DNA from: a virus
IMG/VR virus record: IMGVR_UViG_3300046001_006343
Span: 1 to 20,830 of that record
Length of the DNA: 20,830 nucleotides
Direction: 5' to 3' (one strand)
Shown here: positions 3,577 through 20,437 of the stretch, piece after piece
Numbering within the stretch: position 1 is the stretch's first letter
How the letters are laid out: the number at the start of each line of letters is the position of its first letter
The notes under the pieces: model-generated
What the model saw: the letters and a program-made list of their open reading frames with translations, nothing else
What the model was told of the DNA's origin: nothing
Databases searched by the model: none
Translations under genes and position numbers: made by a program

Positions 3577-3611
3577 GAGTCCTTTAATTAACTGTCTAAG
3601 TATGTATTATA
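3577..3611 (-). repeat. 35-bp promoter/leader/RBS repeat, copy 1
   Basis: These 35 bases are identical to 3928-3962. They run from the -10 box through the untranslated leader to the AAAGGACTC ribosome site just before the ATG at 3573, so the whole expression signal is duplicated ahead of two different genes. Confidence 0.9.
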
Positions 3612-3634
3612 GCAGAAAGACCATTTACCGTCAA
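3606..3634 (-). promoter_or_regulatory. Sigma70 promoter with shared GTAAAT element
   Basis: TTGACG (3634-3629), 17 bp, TATAAT (3611-3606) on the minus strand; one mismatch in the -35 box. The spacer begins GTAAATGG. It drives the gene at 3373-3573. Confidence 0.87.
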
Positions 3635-3638
3635 CCGT

Positions 3639-3927: not shown

Positions 3928-3962
3928 GAGTCCTTTAATTAACTGTCTAAGTATGTATTATA
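3928..3962 (-). repeat. 35-bp promoter/leader/RBS repeat, copy 2
   Basis: Identical to 3577-3611 over 35 bases: the -10 box, leader and ribosome site of the gene at 3639-3923. Beyond the -10 box the two copies diverge, although both promoters retain the GTAAAT element next to the -35 box. Confidence 0.9.
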
Positions 3963-3985
3963 TACCCAAAATGATTTACTGTCAA
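3957..3985 (-). promoter_or_regulatory. Consensus sigma70 promoter with shared GTAAAT element
   Basis: TTGACA (3985-3980), 17 bp, TATAAT (3962-3957) on the minus strand. It lies directly downstream of the terminator at 3997-4020, so it restarts transcription after the previous operon ends. Confidence 0.9.
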
Positions 3986-3996
3986 CCTCTGCAGCC

Positions 3997-5484: not shown

Positions 5485-5973
5485 ATGCAATATATATCTT
5501 ATTTGGGCATTTACGATGGTACTAATTTACAAGACGCGGGAACACCTGATCAACTAGGCAGAGCATTCAATTCTGGGTTCAGTTGTATGGTTAATGTTTG
5601 GCGTGTAGATGACATATTATACTTGGGTACTGACCAACCACTAACGCAAGTAACCGAAAAGTATATACAAGGTTCTCGTTTTTGGATTAATGCGATGAAT
5701 GACGATATGCAAACTTGGGTTGCTGCACAACCAATTAAACTATATCCAAACTATTTTTGGTTCCCCAATATCACTGAGAGCACTCCCGTGACTACCAGTA
5801 GTGGGAAAATTATTACTCCTGGGCCCGTCCCAATAAACGACACTAGCATTGTATTCCTTCCCGAGATACAGGATAGAGGAATGCTAAGCACTGTACACCT
5901 ACGCTGCTTTGGGGTATGTAGTACCTACTTGACTTTTATTAAACGAATGCGCAATGAGGGCGCCTGGTATTAG
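5485..5973 (+). CDS. PLC-like/GDPD-family protein, apparently catalytically inactive, 162 aa
   Basis: The layout recalls a family of short phospholipase C-like (GDPD-type) TIM-barrel proteins of phages and viruses. From memory these read 'SHRG', 'GF..E.DVW..., LGHDEP', 'LW.HAKN', 'NYFWH', then a 'PG..L...SI.VLPE' and 'C.GICSDY' ending. Here the equivalents are SYLG (5-8), GFSCMVNVW (31-39), LGTDQP (47-52), FWINAMN, NYFWF, TSIVFLPE and CFGVCSTY. The His, Arg, Glu and Asp positions needed for metal binding and catalysis are Tyr, Leu, Met and Asn, and the second His is Thr. It is one of only two plus-strand genes and has no ribosome site. Its TAG overlaps the convergent gene's TAA. The family assignment is by eye. 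Confidence 0.65.
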   Translation: MQYISYLGIYDGTNLQDAGTPDQLGRAFNSGFSCMVNVWRVDDILYLGTDQPLTQVTEKYIQGSRFWINAMNDDMQTWVAAQPIKLYPNYFWFPNITESTPVTTSSGKIITPGPVPINDTSIVFLPEIQDRGMLSTVHLRCFGVCSTYLTFIKRMRNEGAWY

Positions 5974-10840: not shown

Positions 10841-10856
10841 GGTAAATATACGTAGT

Positions 10857-10864
10857 GATAAATA
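10857..10864 (+). promoter_or_regulatory. Possible T4-type late promoter (GATAAATA) for the lipoprotein gene
   Basis: GATAAATA matches seven of eight bases of TATAAATA and would give a leader of roughly 48 bases before the ATG at 10919. No convincing sigma70 pair faces this way. It lies inside the divergent uvsE promoter region. Confidence 0.4.
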
Positions 10865-10873
10865 AGAACTGCA

Positions 10874-10902
10874 AGTATACTACCTTTTTGCGTACTTGTC
10901 AA
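10874..10902 (-). promoter_or_regulatory. Sigma70 promoter for uvsE
   Basis: TTGACA (10902-10897), 17 bp, TATACT (10879-10874) on the minus strand, one mismatch in the -10 box. It gives a leader of about 27 bases before the TTG start at 10840. Confidence 0.82.
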
Positions 10903-10918
10903 CTATTATGGATAACAA

Positions 10919-11839
10919 ATGAAAATACTATTGGTAATATTAAGTCTACTTATGTTAGCTGGCTGTCAACCAGCCAAACAAGCTACGTTAACTTCGGCCA
11001 CCACAACAACCTTTAAACCTACATTTGAAGCAGATTATAACAACTGCGGCAATATGCCAGTGACCAGTGCCAACTCTGTTACATTTGGTTCCGGTAGTGA
11101 CTGCAATGCAGGCCGAGTTGTATCTGCTAAAGGTTACAAAAATATCACACAAATTCGCGCTACAGTGGATTTGAGTAAATTGAACAGTAATTTTGTGGTC
11201 AGTACATTCTACATGGTTTCAAACCCAACTAATCCCAGCTTGCAACCCAAAGGCGCAAACTACTGTGATGCAGGCGGTACACACAATGAATGGAATTGTC
11301 AAGAGATTGATTTTTTCGAAGCTAACAAAAATGTAGTGTTGCAACACACTATGCATCTGGGTGATGGCGGTAGTAATGCTCCACAGCGGTTTGAGTTCAG
11401 CTATACCAGCAGTACAGATGTCTGCTATCCAAACTTAGTGGATAGTCCAAGTACCGGTCTACATAAATGGAATGGGCTTGATGTCAGTAAACCAGTACAA
11501 ATGATAGTGGATTTTACCACTACCGCGATGAAAGTCACCTTTACTCAATCGTCAGTTAGCGTAGTGGTGTACGATTCTAGCGTTGGAACAGGTTATTCAG
11601 GTAGCGGAACACTAGACACTAGCAAGCTTGCATCCAGCATGGCCAATGGGTATTGGCTAACGTTGAGTATGTGGCAGTGGGATAGTTCAAAACAATCAGG
11701 TGCACCGTGGGCACCGGGTACAACACAAGGTTTTTATAATTGGACTAACCCACCATGTGGCTGGGGCACTCTTTGCAGCAAAGCAGGATCTTATTTTGGC
11801 GTGACTAACATTGAAGTTGATGCTGCCGGTGAAATCTAA
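10919..11839 (+). CDS. Lipoprotein with clan GH-B (GH16/GH7-like) glycoside hydrolase motif, 306 aa
   Basis: Residues 1-16 (MKILLVILSLLMLAGC) form a lipoprotein signal with lipobox LAGC, so the mature protein should be lipid-anchored at Cys16. Residues 129-134 read EIDFFE, the E-x-D-x-x-E active-site strand of clan GH-B, with nucleophile and acid/base Glu. The EAN that follows and an upstream NYCDA recall GH7 (E-x-D-x-W-E-A-N), while the size is nearer GH16. Many Ser, Thr, Asn and Trp residues and paired Cys suggest a secreted beta-sandwich. It stands alone on the plus strand with only a weak ribosome site (GGA), between uvsE and the epimerase, as expected of an acquired 'moron' gene. It may cut a host-surface or capsule glucan; the substrate is unknown. 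Confidence 0.72.
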   Translation: MKILLVILSLLMLAGCQPAKQATLTSATTTTFKPTFEADYNNCGNMPVTSANSVTFGSGSDCNAGRVVSAKGYKNITQIRATVDLSKLNSNFVVSTFYMVSNPTNPSLQPKGANYCDAGGTHNEWNCQEIDFFEANKNVVLQHTMHLGDGGSNAPQRFEFSYTSSTDVCYPNLVDSPSTGLHKWNGLDVSKPVQMIVDFTTTAMKVTFTQSSVSVVVYDSSVGTGYSGSGTLDTSKLASSMANGYWLTLSMWQWDSSKQSGAPWAPGTTQGFYNWTNPPCGWGTLCSKAGSYFGVTNIEVDAAGEI

Positions 11840-11848
11840 CAAAAGAAT

Positions 11849-12679
11849 TCAGACCTTCAACAACTCTTCTATGGTGTATAGGTTTTTCATATAGGGTGAC
11901 ACATCTTCTAGCACACTAGATTCAATGTCACCTTTTCTTCTGGGGCCTACTTTAACTGTAAAGTCAACACTGTTGACTTTTTTAAACATATCGACAATCT
12001 CGGTCACGGTTCGTCCAATCCCATGTCCTAAACATTCTACACTATTACTAGGATTCTCGATAGCTTGAAGTAATGAATTACATACTTCATTAACGTGAAC
12101 ATAATCACGCACACAAGTACCGTCTTTAGTATCATAATCATCACCAAAGACTGTAAACTCACCTGTCTCACCAGCTTGCATTAGGTTATACATCAACCCA
12201 TCTGGGTTAGTAGGATAAAAGCCATCACTCCCGATAACATTGTAAAACCTAAAAATAGTGTAGGGCATTGGATTATGCTTGGTACAGAACTCGCGGATAA
12301 CATCTTCCGCTGCACGTTTACTGACTCCATATGTACTCACGCAATCTTGTGCAGCTCCTGTACTTGAAAAGATAAAGTTGTTTGTATTAATCTTATTGAT
12401 GACATTCATCGTACCATTTAAGTTGGTGATATAATACCTGATAGGAATTTGTTCACTTGCCCCCACATTAACGAGAGCAGCCAAATGTATTACCGCATAA
12501 TATGGTTCAGTTTGGTCTGAGAGGGTGAATAGTCGATTGATATCAATCTGAAAAAATTTATCTATAGGTGCGATAGGTTCATTGACATCTAAGCCATGTA
12601 CCTCATATTTACCCTCTAATAGCTTACATAAGTGCGATCCTATATAACCTGAACAACCTGTAATCAAAATCTTTTTCAT
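11849..12679 (-). CDS. NAD-dependent nucleotide-sugar epimerase/dehydratase (GalE-like), 276 aa
   Basis: An extended short-chain dehydrogenase: the Rossmann motif GCSGYIGSH (8-16), FSSTGA (104-109), and catalytic YGVSK (Tyr117, Lys121). A later segment (TKDGTCVRDYVHV) is typical of UDP-glucose 4-epimerases. It is shorter than GalE (about 330 aa), mainly in the C-terminal substrate domain, so the sugar cannot be predicted. The ATG overlaps the TGA of the glycosyltransferase (ATGA). The pair probably makes and transfers one sugar. It ends ten bases from the convergent lipoprotein gene, with no terminator between. Confidence 0.88.
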   Translation of the reverse strand: MKKILITGCSGYIGSHLCKLLEGKYEVHGLDVNEPIAPIDKFFQIDINRLFTLSDQTEPYYAVIHLAALVNVGASEQIPIRYYITNLNGTMNVINKINTNNFIFSSTGAAQDCVSTYGVSKRAAEDVIREFCTKHNPMPYTIFRFYNVIGSDGFYPTNPDGLMYNLMQAGETGEFTVFGDDYDTKDGTCVRDYVHVNEVCNSLLQAIENPSNSVECLGHGIGRTVTEIVDMFKKVNSVDFTVKVGPRRKGDIESSVLEDVSPYMKNLYTIEELLKV

Positions 12680-14016
12680 AATCCGGCAAACAAGCTTGCG
12701 CCTTCTGCTTCCTCTGTTGGTTCGAAACTGGGATTTTTCGTCAAGTACGTATCATCATCAGTATAGATAACTCTAAATTTATGTTTGTTAGTTAACACAG
12801 AACGCGCATCATCAATACAAATTAGACTCCTATCCAAATCTTTGATGAACTCAGAGTATTGGATTGTTTCTTGTTGACAAATTTTTGCAGTGTTACTATT
12901 GGATTTCCTGCCATCAAACTCTTGGAAACATTCACTCCATTTACGAAATACTGAATCTTCCAATGAAGTAAAATGAGACAACGAACCCAAAGCATAATAC
13001 TTCTCGGCAGTCGGGTATTGATTGTATAACTGGGTGACTAGTTCTGCCATATTAGCTTTACTAGTCTCTCGAAAGAATGCTGGATTAAAATTCTTTGTCC
13101 ACCGCACTCCTTCAAGTGCCACTGTGGGTAGCTGAATCATTTGTTCATAGAACGCAATACCATAGCTTTCAACTGTGCTGGGATTAAATGCCACCCTACA
13201 ACTGGTTATGAAGTCAACCTTCTCTTGACCGATAATACCTACTTTTATCTGGTAATCGACCCCAATTTTCTTCAACTGAACTTCAAATTTCTTTGCTCCG
13301 GTTGCACTAGTCATTACTCGGGCAGGAAGATTGGTTTGTTTAATTAAATCAAGGTATACCTCTGGATTCTTACCTTCTTCCCATCGACCCACGAATAGTA
13401 CTCCCTCGCGAGGTGCGTTGTGTTCTTTCAAAAGATTCTTTTCAGGTAAAGGAATTGGCAAATGAAATCCACCTACCTCCAATTGATTAAATTTACTTTG
13501 TGTACCGATGTATATGTTAGACATTCCAAGTTGGAGTCTCATCATACTATTAACACTATGTAAAAACGGATTTTTAGTATCCTTAAATATTTGGCTTTCT
13601 AAATGAGTATATGCAATCACTTGAATACAATCATCCAATCCCATAGTTGAAGCCACCTGAACAGTCTCGTAGGTGTTACAAATCAATGCATCATATATAT
13701 TATGTTGCATTGCTTCTACGATAGCATTCCGAAAGTTTGCCATACGTTCATAACAATAACTATCCCCATACATAAAGATATTACTATGTGTGGTGTATGG
13801 CAAACTCTCACTTGGGTAAATAATATTTGCACCAAGTTGTTGTATCTCTCGTACAAAACTGCTATTTTGCGGATGTTTATCGGTAATAATATCAACCTTA
13901 ATATTATTAGCAGTCATCAATTCTACAAAGCTTTTAGCAAATTGACCGATTCCACCGTGGGGAATAAGAGTTTGATAGCTTACCAAAAAGCCAATTCGTT
14001 TGTCGTATGTTTTCAT
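12676..14016 (-). CDS. GT4-like (GT-B fold) glycosyltransferase, 446 aa
   Basis: A retaining glycosyltransferase of the GT4 type. The N-terminal domain has the glycine-rich PHGGIGQFAKSF (19-30). The C-terminal domain has VLFVGRWEEGKNPE (206-219), where such enzymes contact the donor phosphate, and the EX7E motif (Glu283 and Glu291 in VESYGIAFYEQM). About 80 residues beyond the usual end are unassigned. The ATG overlaps the upstream stop (TAATG) and the stop overlaps the epimerase start. The acceptor could be phage DNA, a virion protein or the host envelope; nothing in the sequence decides. Confidence 0.88.
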   Translation of the reverse strand: MKTYDKRIGFLVSYQTLIPHGGIGQFAKSFVELMTANNIKVDIITDKHPQNSSFVREIQQLGANIIYPSESLPYTTHSNIFMYGDSYCYERMANFRNAIVEAMQHNIYDALICNTYETVQVASTMGLDDCIQVIAYTHLESQIFKDTKNPFLHSVNSMMRLQLGMSNIYIGTQSKFNQLEVGGFHLPIPLPEKNLLKEHNAPREGVLFVGRWEEGKNPEVYLDLIKQTNLPARVMTSATGAKKFEVQLKKIGVDYQIKVGIIGQEKVDFITSCRVAFNPSTVESYGIAFYEQMIQLPTVALEGVRWTKNFNPAFFRETSKANMAELVTQLYNQYPTAEKYYALGSLSHFTSLEDSVFRKWSECFQEFDGRKSNSNTAKICQQETIQYSEFIKDLDRSLICIDDARSVLTNKHKFRVIYTDDDTYLTKNPSFEPTEEAEGASLFAGL

Positions 14017-15483: not shown

Positions 15484-15963
15484 TTAAAACAATTCTTCAT
15501 TATCTTCTCTATGCCCGATACGCATTGCCATATTTGAAGGGGTCTCTCGTACTTCTACTTTAGAACACCACAACCTATCTGCTTCAACTCTACCGTAATC
15601 TGGAAGAAAGATACCATTTACATATTTGTAAAGATAATCAGCTAACCCCTCACAGCCAGTCTTTTCAACTTCAGTGATTTTGGCCAATCCCAAATCACCT
15701 AGTCGTTTGATATCAGCGTAGTGAGGATCATCTTGTGCTAAGAGTAATGCATGGTCAAAATGTTCTTCAAGGAAGGACTTAAGTGGCCGCAGCCCGCCGT
15801 AATCCATTGCCCAGTTTCTCACATCAAGATCATCGCATTCAAACTCAAACTTAAATGATAACGCATATCCGTGAATGAGATTACAATGGCTATCTGCCCG
15901 CCATTGACGATACGCAACTGGCGCAATGTTAGAATATTCTTTAGTTGATATGTATTTTGCCAT
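15484..15963 (-). CDS. queD: 6-carboxytetrahydropterin synthase (QueD-like), 159 aa
   Basis: QueD converts dihydroneopterin triphosphate (made by FolE) to 6-carboxytetrahydropterin. Visible motifs: WRADSHCNLIHGY with His26, putative catalytic Cys27 and His31; the catalytic DH pair (70-71, FDHALLL); and the substrate-binding Glu140 in VEVRETPSN. The zinc motif, HGH in standard QueD, reads HGY here (31-33), so the third zinc ligand may be supplied elsewhere. I recall this HGY variant in other phage and proteobacterial QueD-like proteins. The ATG at 15963 has a modest site (AGAAAG). The first 41 bases of the gene are copied at 16198-16237. Confidence 0.88.
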   Translation of the reverse strand: MAKYISTKEYSNIAPVAYRQWRADSHCNLIHGYALSFKFEFECDDLDVRNWAMDYGGLRPLKSFLEEHFDHALLLAQDDPHYADIKRLGDLGLAKITEVEKTGCEGLADYLYKYVNGIFLPDYGRVEADRLWCSKVEVRETPSNMAMRIGHREDNEELF

Positions 15964-15983
15964 GATTTCTTTCTAAATGTTTT

Positions 15984-16187: not shown

Positions 16188-16237
16188 ACACCTGCCCGCA
16201 ATGTTTGACTATTCTTTAGTTGATATGTATTTGCCAT
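16184..16237 (-). pseudogene. queD 5' fragment forming a 17-codon leader frame
   Basis: Bases 16198-16237 copy 15923-15963 (the first 41 bases of queD) with two mismatches and one lost A. The lost base shifts the frame, so the copy reads MANTYQLKNSQTLRAGV and stops at a TGA overlapping the next ATG. It is a gene fragment that may now serve as a coupled leader. The TATAAT at 16248-16243 lies so close that transcription could begin at or next to this ATG. Confidence 0.7.
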
Positions 16238-16242
16238 TATCT

Positions 16243-16294: not shown

Positions 16295-17086
16295 TTATTT
16301 ACCTAAATTCAATTCTTTTCTAATGGTTGTTGCACTGATTTTTACAATGCTCTCGTCAAAAATTTCTTCGCCTGAAGTGTAGCCGACCCCTCGCCCCCAT
16401 CCAATATGAACAATATTAGGCACAACTTGTATTTCGTATTGCCCTTGAAAGAGTGGATCTAAATCGCGGCGAATAAACCTAGTAACCTGGTTAATAGCAA
16501 ATGGATTGCTACCTTGCCAACCCTGAACATCACGAATTTGTATTATCACTTGTCCGGTTCGTGCTATCAACCGTTCAAATAGCGCACGATGCCCGTCATG
16601 CCAGGGTTGCCAACGACCTAACATTTGTACCGTTTCTTTTTTCCAATCAAACACTGGTCGGCGCCGCTTGTCTAGGATATGGCCAGCAATAAATTCAGCC
16701 CACTTCTCTGCATCTTTTTCGTTAACACGAAAGTCATATACTTCCGGCTCTACAAACATAGCATTCGTATCCGCATATCGACCTTCTTGTATGGTGTCCA
16801 TCCAAATAGTCCAATCGGCTTTGTAGTTATTACGCATATCAACTAGCGGTGCTACAAAATCACAAATCACATATTGTTTGTATGACTCATCCGCCAATGC
16901 TCGCATACGCTTACTTTGTCGGATACGGCCTTCTTGGCTGAAATCCCAGTCATCGTATTTTTTCCTGATTTCATCTGCATTCAACCATCCAACTTCGCGG
17001 TCGGCTAGCATTAGTTCAATTTTCAATCTGTGAGCCAGGGTGGTTTTACCAGAGCCAGGCAAGCCCATTATCAATATTCGTTCCAT
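16295..17086 (-). CDS. P-loop kinase (APS kinase-like) fused to a nucleotidylyltransferase, 263 aa
   Basis: Two domains. Residues 1-140 are a P-loop kinase like adenylylsulfate kinase: Walker A GLPGSGKT (8-15), WLNADEIR (34-41), the RQSKRMRALAD segment (46-56) and VICDFVAPL (73-81). Residues 150-263 are a nucleotidylyltransferase of the HxGH type: GRWQPWHDGHRAL (157-169) and ISATTIRKEL (250-259), as in NMN adenylyltransferases and cytidylyltransferases. The ATG at 17086 has AAGGA seven bases upstream. It follows a second nucleotidylyltransferase by 15 bases. The fusion suggests phosphorylation then activation of one small molecule to a nucleotide-linked form. I recall such fusions in T4-like phages; the substrate is unknown. 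Confidence 0.87.
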   Translation of the reverse strand: MERILIMGLPGSGKTTLAHRLKIELMLADREVGWLNADEIRKKYDDWDFSQEGRIRQSKRMRALADESYKQYVICDFVAPLVDMRNNYKADWTIWMDTIQEGRYADTNAMFVEPEVYDFRVNEKDAEKWAEFIAGHILDKRRRPVFDWKKETVQMLGRWQPWHDGHRALFERLIARTGQVIIQIRDVQGWQGSNPFAINQVTRFIRRDLDPLFQGQYEIQVVPNIVHIGWGRGVGYTSGEEIFDESIVKISATTIRKELNLGK

Positions 17087-17101: not shown

Positions 17102-17578
17102 TTAGGTCAACTGCCATTCATCATTCTTTTTCTCAGCCTCTACCACTCGCTTTCTCAAACTACTAGAACTAAATGAATGATCTCTCCCATTGAAAACAAG
17201 ACGTATACCTCGTTGTTCACAAATGGTACGACCGGTAAAGGACCGTTCCATATATTCAACTCCCAGAATTCGCACATCTAGAGGCAAAGTTAGTAGAATG
17301 TCTTCCAAATCTTTTTCAGTATTATATACTACTATTTCATCAACAAACCTAACTGCACCGAGGCTAATCTGCCGTTCAACAATACTTTGAATTGGTTCAT
17401 TCTTTTCAGGGCGATCCCAAGTGGCATTATTTTGCAATCCCGCGATGAGATAATCGCAGTGATTTTTTGCCTCACTTAGCATTGCAATATGCCCTGCGTG
17501 AAGCAGGTCAAACTGAGATGCCACAAATCCAATTATCAATCCTTGTTCACGCAACTCTTTTAATTTGTCAAAAATCAT
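17102..17578 (-). CDS. Cytidylyltransferase-like nucleotidyltransferase (TagD/RfaE type), 158 aa
   Basis: The motif FDLLHAGHIAML (23-34) is the HxGH site, and SSSSLRKRV (137-145) is the family's second phosphate-binding motif. The size matches glycerol-3-phosphate cytidylyltransferases and the RfaE C-terminal domain, which join CTP or ATP to a sugar- or polyol-phosphate. The ATG at 17578 overlaps the TGA of the previous gene (ATGA), which I prefer to a GTG at 17596. Its neighbours suggest it helps make an activated sugar or polyol. Confidence 0.87.
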   Translation of the reverse strand: MIFDKLKELREQGLIIGFVASQFDLLHAGHIAMLSEAKNHCDYLIAGLQNNATWDRPEKNEPIQSIVERQISLGAVRFVDEIVVYNTEKDLEDILLTLPLDVRILGVEYMERSFTGRTICEQRGIRLVFNGRDHSFSSSSLRKRVVEAEKKNDEWQLT

Positions 17579-17811
17579 AATCTTATAGCTTTCCACACTG
17601 TTTCTTTACTATGTTGTTCTATGAATTCTTCTTCTCCTTCGAAGGAGCCTGTCCGTTTGAGAATATCATCTAGCAACCATTTCAACCTATATAGGTCTTT
17701 TTTAATTTCCCATTGATTGAACCCATCATTATATGGACTGTTCAATTCACTGCTGGCCCTATGAATCTGCTGTTTAATGCTAAGATAATCCATTGGTTTG
17801 TGAAATCCCAT
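17575..17811 (-). CDS. Hypothetical small phage protein, 78 aa
   Basis: Unrecognised. The ATG at 17811 has GAGGG five bases upstream and overlaps the previous gene by 32 bases. The protein is helical and charged (WEIKKDLYRLKWLLDDILKR, then EGEEEFIEQHSKETVWKAIR). It could be a small accessory subunit; nothing shows which. Confidence 0.72.
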   Translation of the reverse strand: MGFHKPMDYLSIKQQIHRASSELNSPYNDGFNQWEIKKDLYRLKWLLDDILKRTGSFEGEEEFIEQHSKETVWKAIRL

Positions 17812-19243: not shown

Positions 19244-20419
19244 TTAATATTTTGTTTCAACTGTATGTTTACGATAATCTGTACTCATTCTAAGCATAGA
19301 TTCACCATTTCCCTCAAGTATATCACATATGCGGTCAATAGTACCATCGTTGTAACTACTGATTGCACCCAACTTGGGATGAGGTGCTTCCAACAATACT
19401 TCTAGCTTATTCAACGCGTCCTCTATACTCCAAGGAACATACATGCGAGTATGATCATTGGCAAAAGTTTCAGGGAAAGACCTATAAGCAGGATATAGAA
19501 CATTACATCCCAAAGCGTCGGCTTCAGAAACGGTGTTTGAGACCCAGTCCTGCAGCGCACAATTAAACACAACACGGCTATCATTAACAATATTGTAGTA
19601 ATCATTCTTTCCTAGATTTTCATAAATTGTTAATAGACCTCGCTGTTGAAAGGAGCGGGTCCTAGCCATGTAGCTATCATTGTTTGACTTCAACGTAGCA
19701 CCACTACACACTGCAAATTCAACTGTACTTTCAGGATGCCGAGTAATGTAAGCATTAATCAGATCCATATAGAAATCAGGATTTTTTTCCTGATCCCATC
19801 TGGCTGAGAATACCACTCGCTTTTTACGTTCATTGAATGGATTGATAGAGTCAACCCGTGATTGCACTTCAGCCTTACCAAATGCCAAACCACTGATATT
19901 GTAAATTGGGGCCTTCCAGCCCGCAATCTTCATATGCATTACCATTTCTTCGTTAGTAGCTAGTACACCGTCAACGAAACTGTCGACCATCTTCTCATAA
20001 TGACCCATAAAGTCAGCCATGTCCCAAACGTGAACAAAATCGTCGGGGTCGATAGACTGAGCAAGGCAACGGACGAAAATCTTGGGCCTGCTGGTAACGG
20101 GAATCTGTTTCATTATGTAAGGCAATGATTCAATACCGGGTTGAAACATGTCCTCAAAATAAATAACGTCACCCGATCGTACTTCACCGGCCTTCATCAT
20201 CTTGACTAGATTCATCAATTGACTCATGCCAAAGTAGGTACGACCGTGTGCGTCTAACACCTGCCCAGTAACGATAGCCTGATCATTAGTCAGCGTTTCA
20301 CCTGGTACAATGAGATAGTCAATATTCCGTTGTTTGAATACAGCCTCATTCCATTGTTGCAGTTGATAGGTGTATCGGGCAACATAGGGCTCAAGTCCGC
20401 AATATATCAATCGTCGCAT
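19244..20419 (-). CDS. Phage GT-B glycosyltransferase, 391 aa
   Basis: A GT-B type glycosyltransferase. The N-terminus (MRRLIYCGLEPYVARYTYQL) begins the first Rossmann domain, and the second holds RVVFSARWDQEKNPDFYMDL (about 191-210), the counterpart of the donor-binding GRW..GKNP strand of the other glycosyltransferase here. Near the C-terminus DWVSNTVSEADALGCNVLYP and RSFPETFANDHTRMYVPWSI match phage glycosyltransferases I recall. The EX7E spacing is not clear. I use the ATG at 20419 with GAGG upstream; a GTG at 20431 overlaps that site. It is only remotely similar to the gene at 12676-14016. Confidence 0.82.
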   Translation of the reverse strand: MRRLIYCGLEPYVARYTYQLQQWNEAVFKQRNIDYLIVPGETLTNDQAIVTGQVLDAHGRTYFGMSQLMNLVKMMKAGEVRSGDVIYFEDMFQPGIESLPYIMKQIPVTSRPKIFVRCLAQSIDPDDFVHVWDMADFMGHYEKMVDSFVDGVLATNEEMVMHMKIAGWKAPIYNISGLAFGKAEVQSRVDSINPFNERKKRVVFSARWDQEKNPDFYMDLINAYITRHPESTVEFAVCSGATLKSNNDSYMARTRSFQQRGLLTIYENLGKNDYYNIVNDSRVVFNCALQDWVSNTVSEADALGCNVLYPAYRSFPETFANDHTRMYVPWSIEDALNKLEVLLEAPHPKLGAISSYNDGTIDRICDILEGNGESMLRMSTDYRKHTVETKY

Positions 20420-20437
20420 TCTTGTAGTCACCCTCTA

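Follow-up and report, generated by a model that had tools for sequence, protein, structure and literature searches.

A conserved family of exported phage proteins with a predicted GH7-like fold and active site

Enzymes of family GH7 are retaining and are central in cellulose breakdown; in Cel7A, C172 and C210 are joined by a disulfide. The neighbouring GH16 family of clan GH-B does not, to our knowledge, carry the YCD signature of GH7. One published GH7 phylogeny contains eukaryotes only, its homologues being those of fungi, oomycetes, protists, amoebae, sponges, and crustaceans (PMC6555040). No paper linking GH7 to viral auxiliary metabolic genes came up in a literature search, within a coverage incomplete enough that an earlier report is possible. 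The gene described here lies in a viral contig (IMG/VR record IMGVR_UViG_3300046001_006343, positions 1 to 20,830), and the whole 20,830-nucleotide stretch analysed is called the window below. A first-pass annotation of this DNA had noted, in a putative lipoprotein, a motif resembling the GH7 active site. Family membership, conservation, fold, residue register, export signals, and genomic placement were computed for this protein and its relatives.

The open reading frame in question is a genuine gene, found exactly where the first-pass annotation had placed it, and it has the following features.

10919-11839, plus strand: gene for the GH7-like exported protein, 306 amino acids, stop codon included in the coordinates
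10841-10918, no strand: divergent 78-base gap to the UvdE gene, which must contain the 5' signals of the GH7-like gene
10919-10966, plus strand: signal peptide, residues 1-16, with the lipobox LAGC at residues 13-16, matched by LPAM_1
11261-11278, plus strand: YCDAGG, residues 115-120, its YCD aligned to Y171-C172-D173 of Cel7A; Y115, C116, and D117 invariant (n=67)
11297-11320, plus strand: CQEIDFFE, residues 127-134, with the predicted nucleophile E129, D131, and the predicted acid/base E134; C127 aligned to C210 of Cel7A
11348-11356, plus strand: T144-M-H146, matched to T226-P-H228 of Cel7A by motif spacing; T144 and H146 invariant (n=67)
11672-11677, plus strand: W252-Q253, with W252 aligned to W367 of Cel7A

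The encoded protein has the N-terminal residues MKILLVILSLLMLAGC, with NYCDA at residues 114-118 and EIDFFEAN at residues 129-136. No promoter-like site was found on the plus strand near the gene. Searched alone against Pfam, PHROGs, NCBIfam, and the PDB, the protein returns just its lipoprotein signal or chance matches, and the bare pattern E-x-D-x-x-E is by itself weak evidence because three open reading frames of the window contain it.

Comparison across relatives is more informative. Stepwise widening of the search raised the number of viral contigs encoding relatives from 23 to 72 and then to at least 84, with identities to the window protein mostly of 45-60%. A contig with about 67% identity in matching stretches supplied the first diverged relative, and scans of viral contigs also returned four more copies with a protein sequence identical to that of the window, on near-identical contigs. 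Close pairs of members have a median dN/dS of 0.09, a sign of strong purifying selection and hence of a protein maintained by selection. The motif noted in the first-pass annotation goes beyond chance resemblance: E129, D131, E134, Y115, C116, D117, C127, and H146 are identical in 67 of 67 aligned members, as are N136, Q142, T144, C169, and W246, while R66, W252, Q253, C280, and C286 are invariant among members whose sequence reaches them and Y98 has one exception (n=67). The residues with which a retaining GH7 enzyme performs catalysis all occur in the family.

Almost all relatives found are viral. No relative was found among 50,697 records of cultured phages, plasmids gave one chance-level match, and no true GH7 turned up when viral contigs were scanned for GH7 signature peptides. 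A pattern-based scan of 84,980 prokaryote species, at one genome per species, yielded a single relative, carried by one contig in a single-cell genome of Chlamydiae, and among 234 Chlamydiae genomes this one alone carries it; a PF00840 search of Chlamydiae genomes gave no matches, but its controls were equally silent, which makes it uninformative. In the tree, the Chlamydiae copy is nested within phage sequences (support 99/95, though on a long branch) and therefore looks acquired rather than ancestral. This only cellular relative found (L033:7971-9302 of CACLRR010000005.1) pairs a GH7-like domain with a downstream acidic repeat linker and roughly 140 C-terminal residues without a Pfam match, has no evident signal peptide, and is flanked by ordinary bacterial genes (glutamine synthetase, OmpA-like, and C1 peptidase).

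Structure prediction places the family closest to GH7. AlphaFold2 gave an unreliable model for the window protein as a single sequence (pLDDT 32) and a confident one with 51 family members (pLDDT 87.9, pTM 0.90). When this model is compared with the PDB, ranks 1-29 in Foldseek are all GH7 enzymes (best E 1.4e-9), as are ranks 1-46 in VIA-align (Z 16.1-17.8, 240-251 residues aligned), the top VIA-align entry being RsSymEG1 (PDB 8pof, Z 17.8), whose title describes a smaller form of GH7 endoglucanase. GH16 enzymes come next in both rankings, with the GH16-type VvEG16 (PDB 5dze) following the GH7 entries in VIA-align at Z 15.4, and the best matches among predicted viral structures (BFVD) are GH16-like and weaker than those to GH7. 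On the strength of this model, the window protein is predicted to have a clan GH-B fold of the GH7 type. A single predicted strand (model residues 111-119) carries the motif, which aligns with the GH7 triad; the contrary outcome named in the first-pass annotation, a lectin with its motif outside the cleft, was not seen in these comparisons.

Sequence profiles point to the same family. When the family profile is compared with a profile of five GH7 enzymes, the match has a probability of 95.7% (E 9.1e-9, score 67.6), and 40 column-shuffled control versions score at most 22.7. Two of the five GH7 sequences match PDB 1cel/4p1h and 1eg1 over their full length, and three were taken from printed alignments. 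Against a small GH16 profile, built from three sequences only, one of them a lichenase, the probability is 0.14%. In both the profile alignment and a merged alignment, E129, D131, and E134 fall in register with the triad E212, D214, and E217 of Trichoderma Cel7A, and further aligned pairs include Y115-C116-D117 with Y171-C172-D173, C127 with C210, Y98 with Y145, and W252 with W367. By analogy with Cel7A, we infer that C116 and C127, at the positions of C172 and C210, form the same disulfide bond. The merged alignment shows no counterpart for the GH7 residues W38 and W40 or for the loops in which R251 and D259 lie.

The resemblance to GH7 proposed in the first-pass annotation is supported by fold, profile, and residue-by-residue alignment. 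A GH7 assignment as such stands only in part: the fold, the triad, and YCD agree with it, but none of the 51 members scanned matches Pfam Glyco_hydro_7 (PF00840), even at E 10, and the tunnel loops are missing. The GH16 model PF00722 likewise matches none of the 51 at E up to 10. HMMER profiles found nothing among PDB sequences, so the relation to GH7 becomes visible only by fold and profile-profile comparison. With no Pfam GH7 match in any scanned member, the family is filed as an unnamed family of clan GH-B, sister to GH7, and not as GH7 as defined today.

LPAM_1 matches residues 2-17 of the window protein with E 0.0018 and 19.0 bits, slightly below its 20-bit cut-off, and the lipobox Cys is present in 52 of the 56 family sequences that have that column. 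No lipobox-bearing member has Asp at +2, and under the Lol sorting rule a lipoprotein without Asp at this position goes to the outer membrane, which is therefore the predicted destination; outer-membrane lipoproteins often face the periplasm. In place of the lipobox, four relatives seem to carry a membrane anchor (L016, L024, L032, and L063) and three a plain signal peptide (L020, L047, and L059). It follows that export is conserved and lipidation is not: the lipid anchor read from the window sequence alone is the commonest export mode of the family but not its only one.

The genomic setting of the family suggests when the protein is made. In 44 of 67 loci, the GH7-like gene is at most four genes from nrdA/nrdB, whose family assignments were confirmed, and in 18 it lies directly between them. 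In many of these loci its start codon follows shortly after the nrdA stop, the spacer holding a ribosome-binding site, AAAGGAAAA, an arrangement that suggests joint transcription with nrdA/nrdB before lysis. ATAAATA boxes resembling late promoters are not enriched upstream of the gene (2/44 versus 43/569). The window copy is outside this nrd context; its two neighbours, a UvdE gene and an epimerase gene, are encoded on the other strand. Almost every other plausible gene in the window is minus-strand, except a 162-residue open reading frame at 5485-5973 on the plus strand, itself a weak match to phrog_34507 (E 1.2e-4). The gene is therefore a strand outlier in the window, as the first-pass annotation had remarked, but this is not a property of the gene, since in 62 of 67 loci its orientation matches that of the neighbouring genes, and only the window copy runs against them.

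That the gene resides in phage genomes is confirmed by its relatives. The T4-type capsid protein Gp23 occurs on three large relative contigs (E about 1e-98); one, a contig of 303 kb, combines Gp23 (E 7.8e-99) with a terminase, and a terminase is also found on another contig. The relatives are T4-like phages. Their NrdA has its nearest match in Xanthomonas phage X1 (59%). A lysogenic role, offered earlier as one option, found no support, the relatives being T4-like and the gene often lying in a ribonucleotide reductase region. The genes of the window are nearest to those of Synechococcus phage BUCT-ZZ01 (Kyanoviridae); the two resemble each other in gene content near queE, queD, and the GTP cyclohydrolase gene. 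The two phages also share divergent glycosyltransferase-like proteins, encoded in the window at 19244-20431 and 12676-14016 (both minus strand; 65% and 39% identity to the BUCT-ZZ01 counterparts), a pair that suggests that phages of this group modify glycans or DNA. Elsewhere in the window, the adjoining minus-strand genes at 16295-17086 (kinase-like; phrog_10255, with an APS-kinase-like N-terminus) and 17102-17596 (cytidylyltransferase-like) possibly form a nucleotide or NAD salvage pair. The window also contains a 45-base inverted pair (15922-15966 and 16197-16240, 91% identity) and a 60-base repeat pair (3577-3636 and 3928-3987, 85% identity). In one relative, a gene near the GH7-like gene encodes a porin-like outer-membrane protein (L057:11031-11930), weakly similar to an Azoarcus porin, a single weak match as a pointer to the host; a phage-borne porin would be unusual.

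The protein is probably an envelope-tethered, open-cleft, endo-acting hydrolase of beta-1,4-glucan type, made by infected cells and belonging to a clan GH-B lineage that is sister to GH7; the surface glucan hydrolase of the first-pass annotation stays plausible. We infer its mechanism, endo action, tethering, substrate, and benefit as follows. The protein would leave the cytoplasm by Sec export, undergo lipoprotein maturation, and be retained in the host's outer membrane during infection; for many relatives, co-production with ribonucleotide reductase genes is probable, and so production before lysis. By analogy with GH7 chemistry, hydrolysis would follow a retaining double displacement in which E129 attacks the sugar, E134 gives and then takes a proton, and E129 is assisted by D131. 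Given the lack of tunnel-forming loops, an open cleft cutting inside beta-1,4-glucan-type chains is expected, as opposed to processive movement along them. The substrate may be cellulose-like, for example bacterial cellulose, or some other beta-glucan in the envelope or matrix of the host, and the likely benefit would be either a loosened matrix for progeny escape or removal of a surface glycan, preventing re-adsorption to debris. The substrate is the weakest step of this proposal: since GH7 far-subsite residues have no counterpart in the family, it may differ from that of GH7.

That step is where a competing explanation enters, which we regard as possible though unlikely: an active hydrolase or transglycosylase of clan GH-B that is not of cellulase type and acts on another envelope or matrix polymer, such as a beta-1,3 or mixed-linkage glucan, a capsular glycan, or an amino-sugar glycan, with, for example, removal of a receptor and exclusion of superinfecting phages as its role. 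Triad and fold are common to the whole clan, several GH7 far-subsite residues are absent, and GH16 enzymes, which have many substrates, come next in the fold rankings; yet both profile and fold match GH7 specifically better, and the GH7 features YCD, W367, and the C172/C210 positions are conserved. Non-catalytic carbohydrate binding on a GH7-like scaffold, for adhesion or receptor masking, would fit a short open cleft and a concanavalin-like fold that is frequent in lectins. We consider it highly improbable, as the three catalytic carboxylates, together with D117, T144, and H146, never vary among the 67 aligned members, even at about 45% identity, and binding alone would not require such invariance.

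Part of the evidence might instead indicate a component of the virion or of lysis, either a spanin-like lipoprotein or a particle-borne enzyme. Some members have weak PHROG matches to Rz-like spanins, and PAAR and cell-wall hydrolase genes occur a few genes away in some relatives (a PAAR protein at L080:2306-2587 and a SleB-type cell wall hydrolase at L051:6376-6963). The PHROG matches of the window protein, however, are limited to the lipoprotein signal and its immediate surroundings, and in most loci the gene has nucleotide-metabolism genes around it rather than a tail or lysis module. We consider this explanation highly improbable too.

If the tethered glucanase is the correct reading, it suggests a phage strategy in which beta-glucan on or around infected cells is remodelled by an enzyme displayed on them. 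More speculatively, phages of prokaryotes may hold an old, separate GH7-type lineage, sharing its origin with eukaryote-associated GH7 or ancestral to it, and used as a pre-lysis displayed enzyme that cuts host cellulose or a similar glucan; this broader picture is doubtful. A sister family conserved in viruses could also serve as a prokaryotic-side outgroup for GH7.

Among described systems, the viral GH16-like proteins in BFVD (for example, of Pithovirus LCPAC202 and Siphoviridae sp. ctLfk13) are also virus-encoded proteins with the clan GH-B fold, but they match at E 1e-6 and weaker with 9-13% identity, and those that have names bear GH16 or laminarinase-like annotations rather than GH7-like ones. 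GH16 itself (PF00722; VvEG16 and marine laminarinases) shares the clan GH-B fold and the E-x-D-x-x-E motif with the phage family, whereas its alignment covers 192 residues compared with 243 for GH7. From GH7 (PF00840), the phage family differs in being viral and usually lipid-anchored, in its mature chain of 289 residues (321-445 in every GH7 entry listed), in a YCD-to-nucleophile distance of 13 residues (about 25-40 in GH7), and in lacking Cel7A-type tunnel loops and a Pfam GH7 match. The closest likeness is nevertheless to GH7, to RsSymEG1 before the Cel7A cellobiohydrolases and the Cel7B/EG I endoglucanases, and extends over the fold, the E-x-D-x-x-E motif, the YCD signature, the Cys pair at the C172/C210 positions, Y145, W367, and an SxW ahead of the C-terminal part, making the phage family a small natural version of the GH7 fold.
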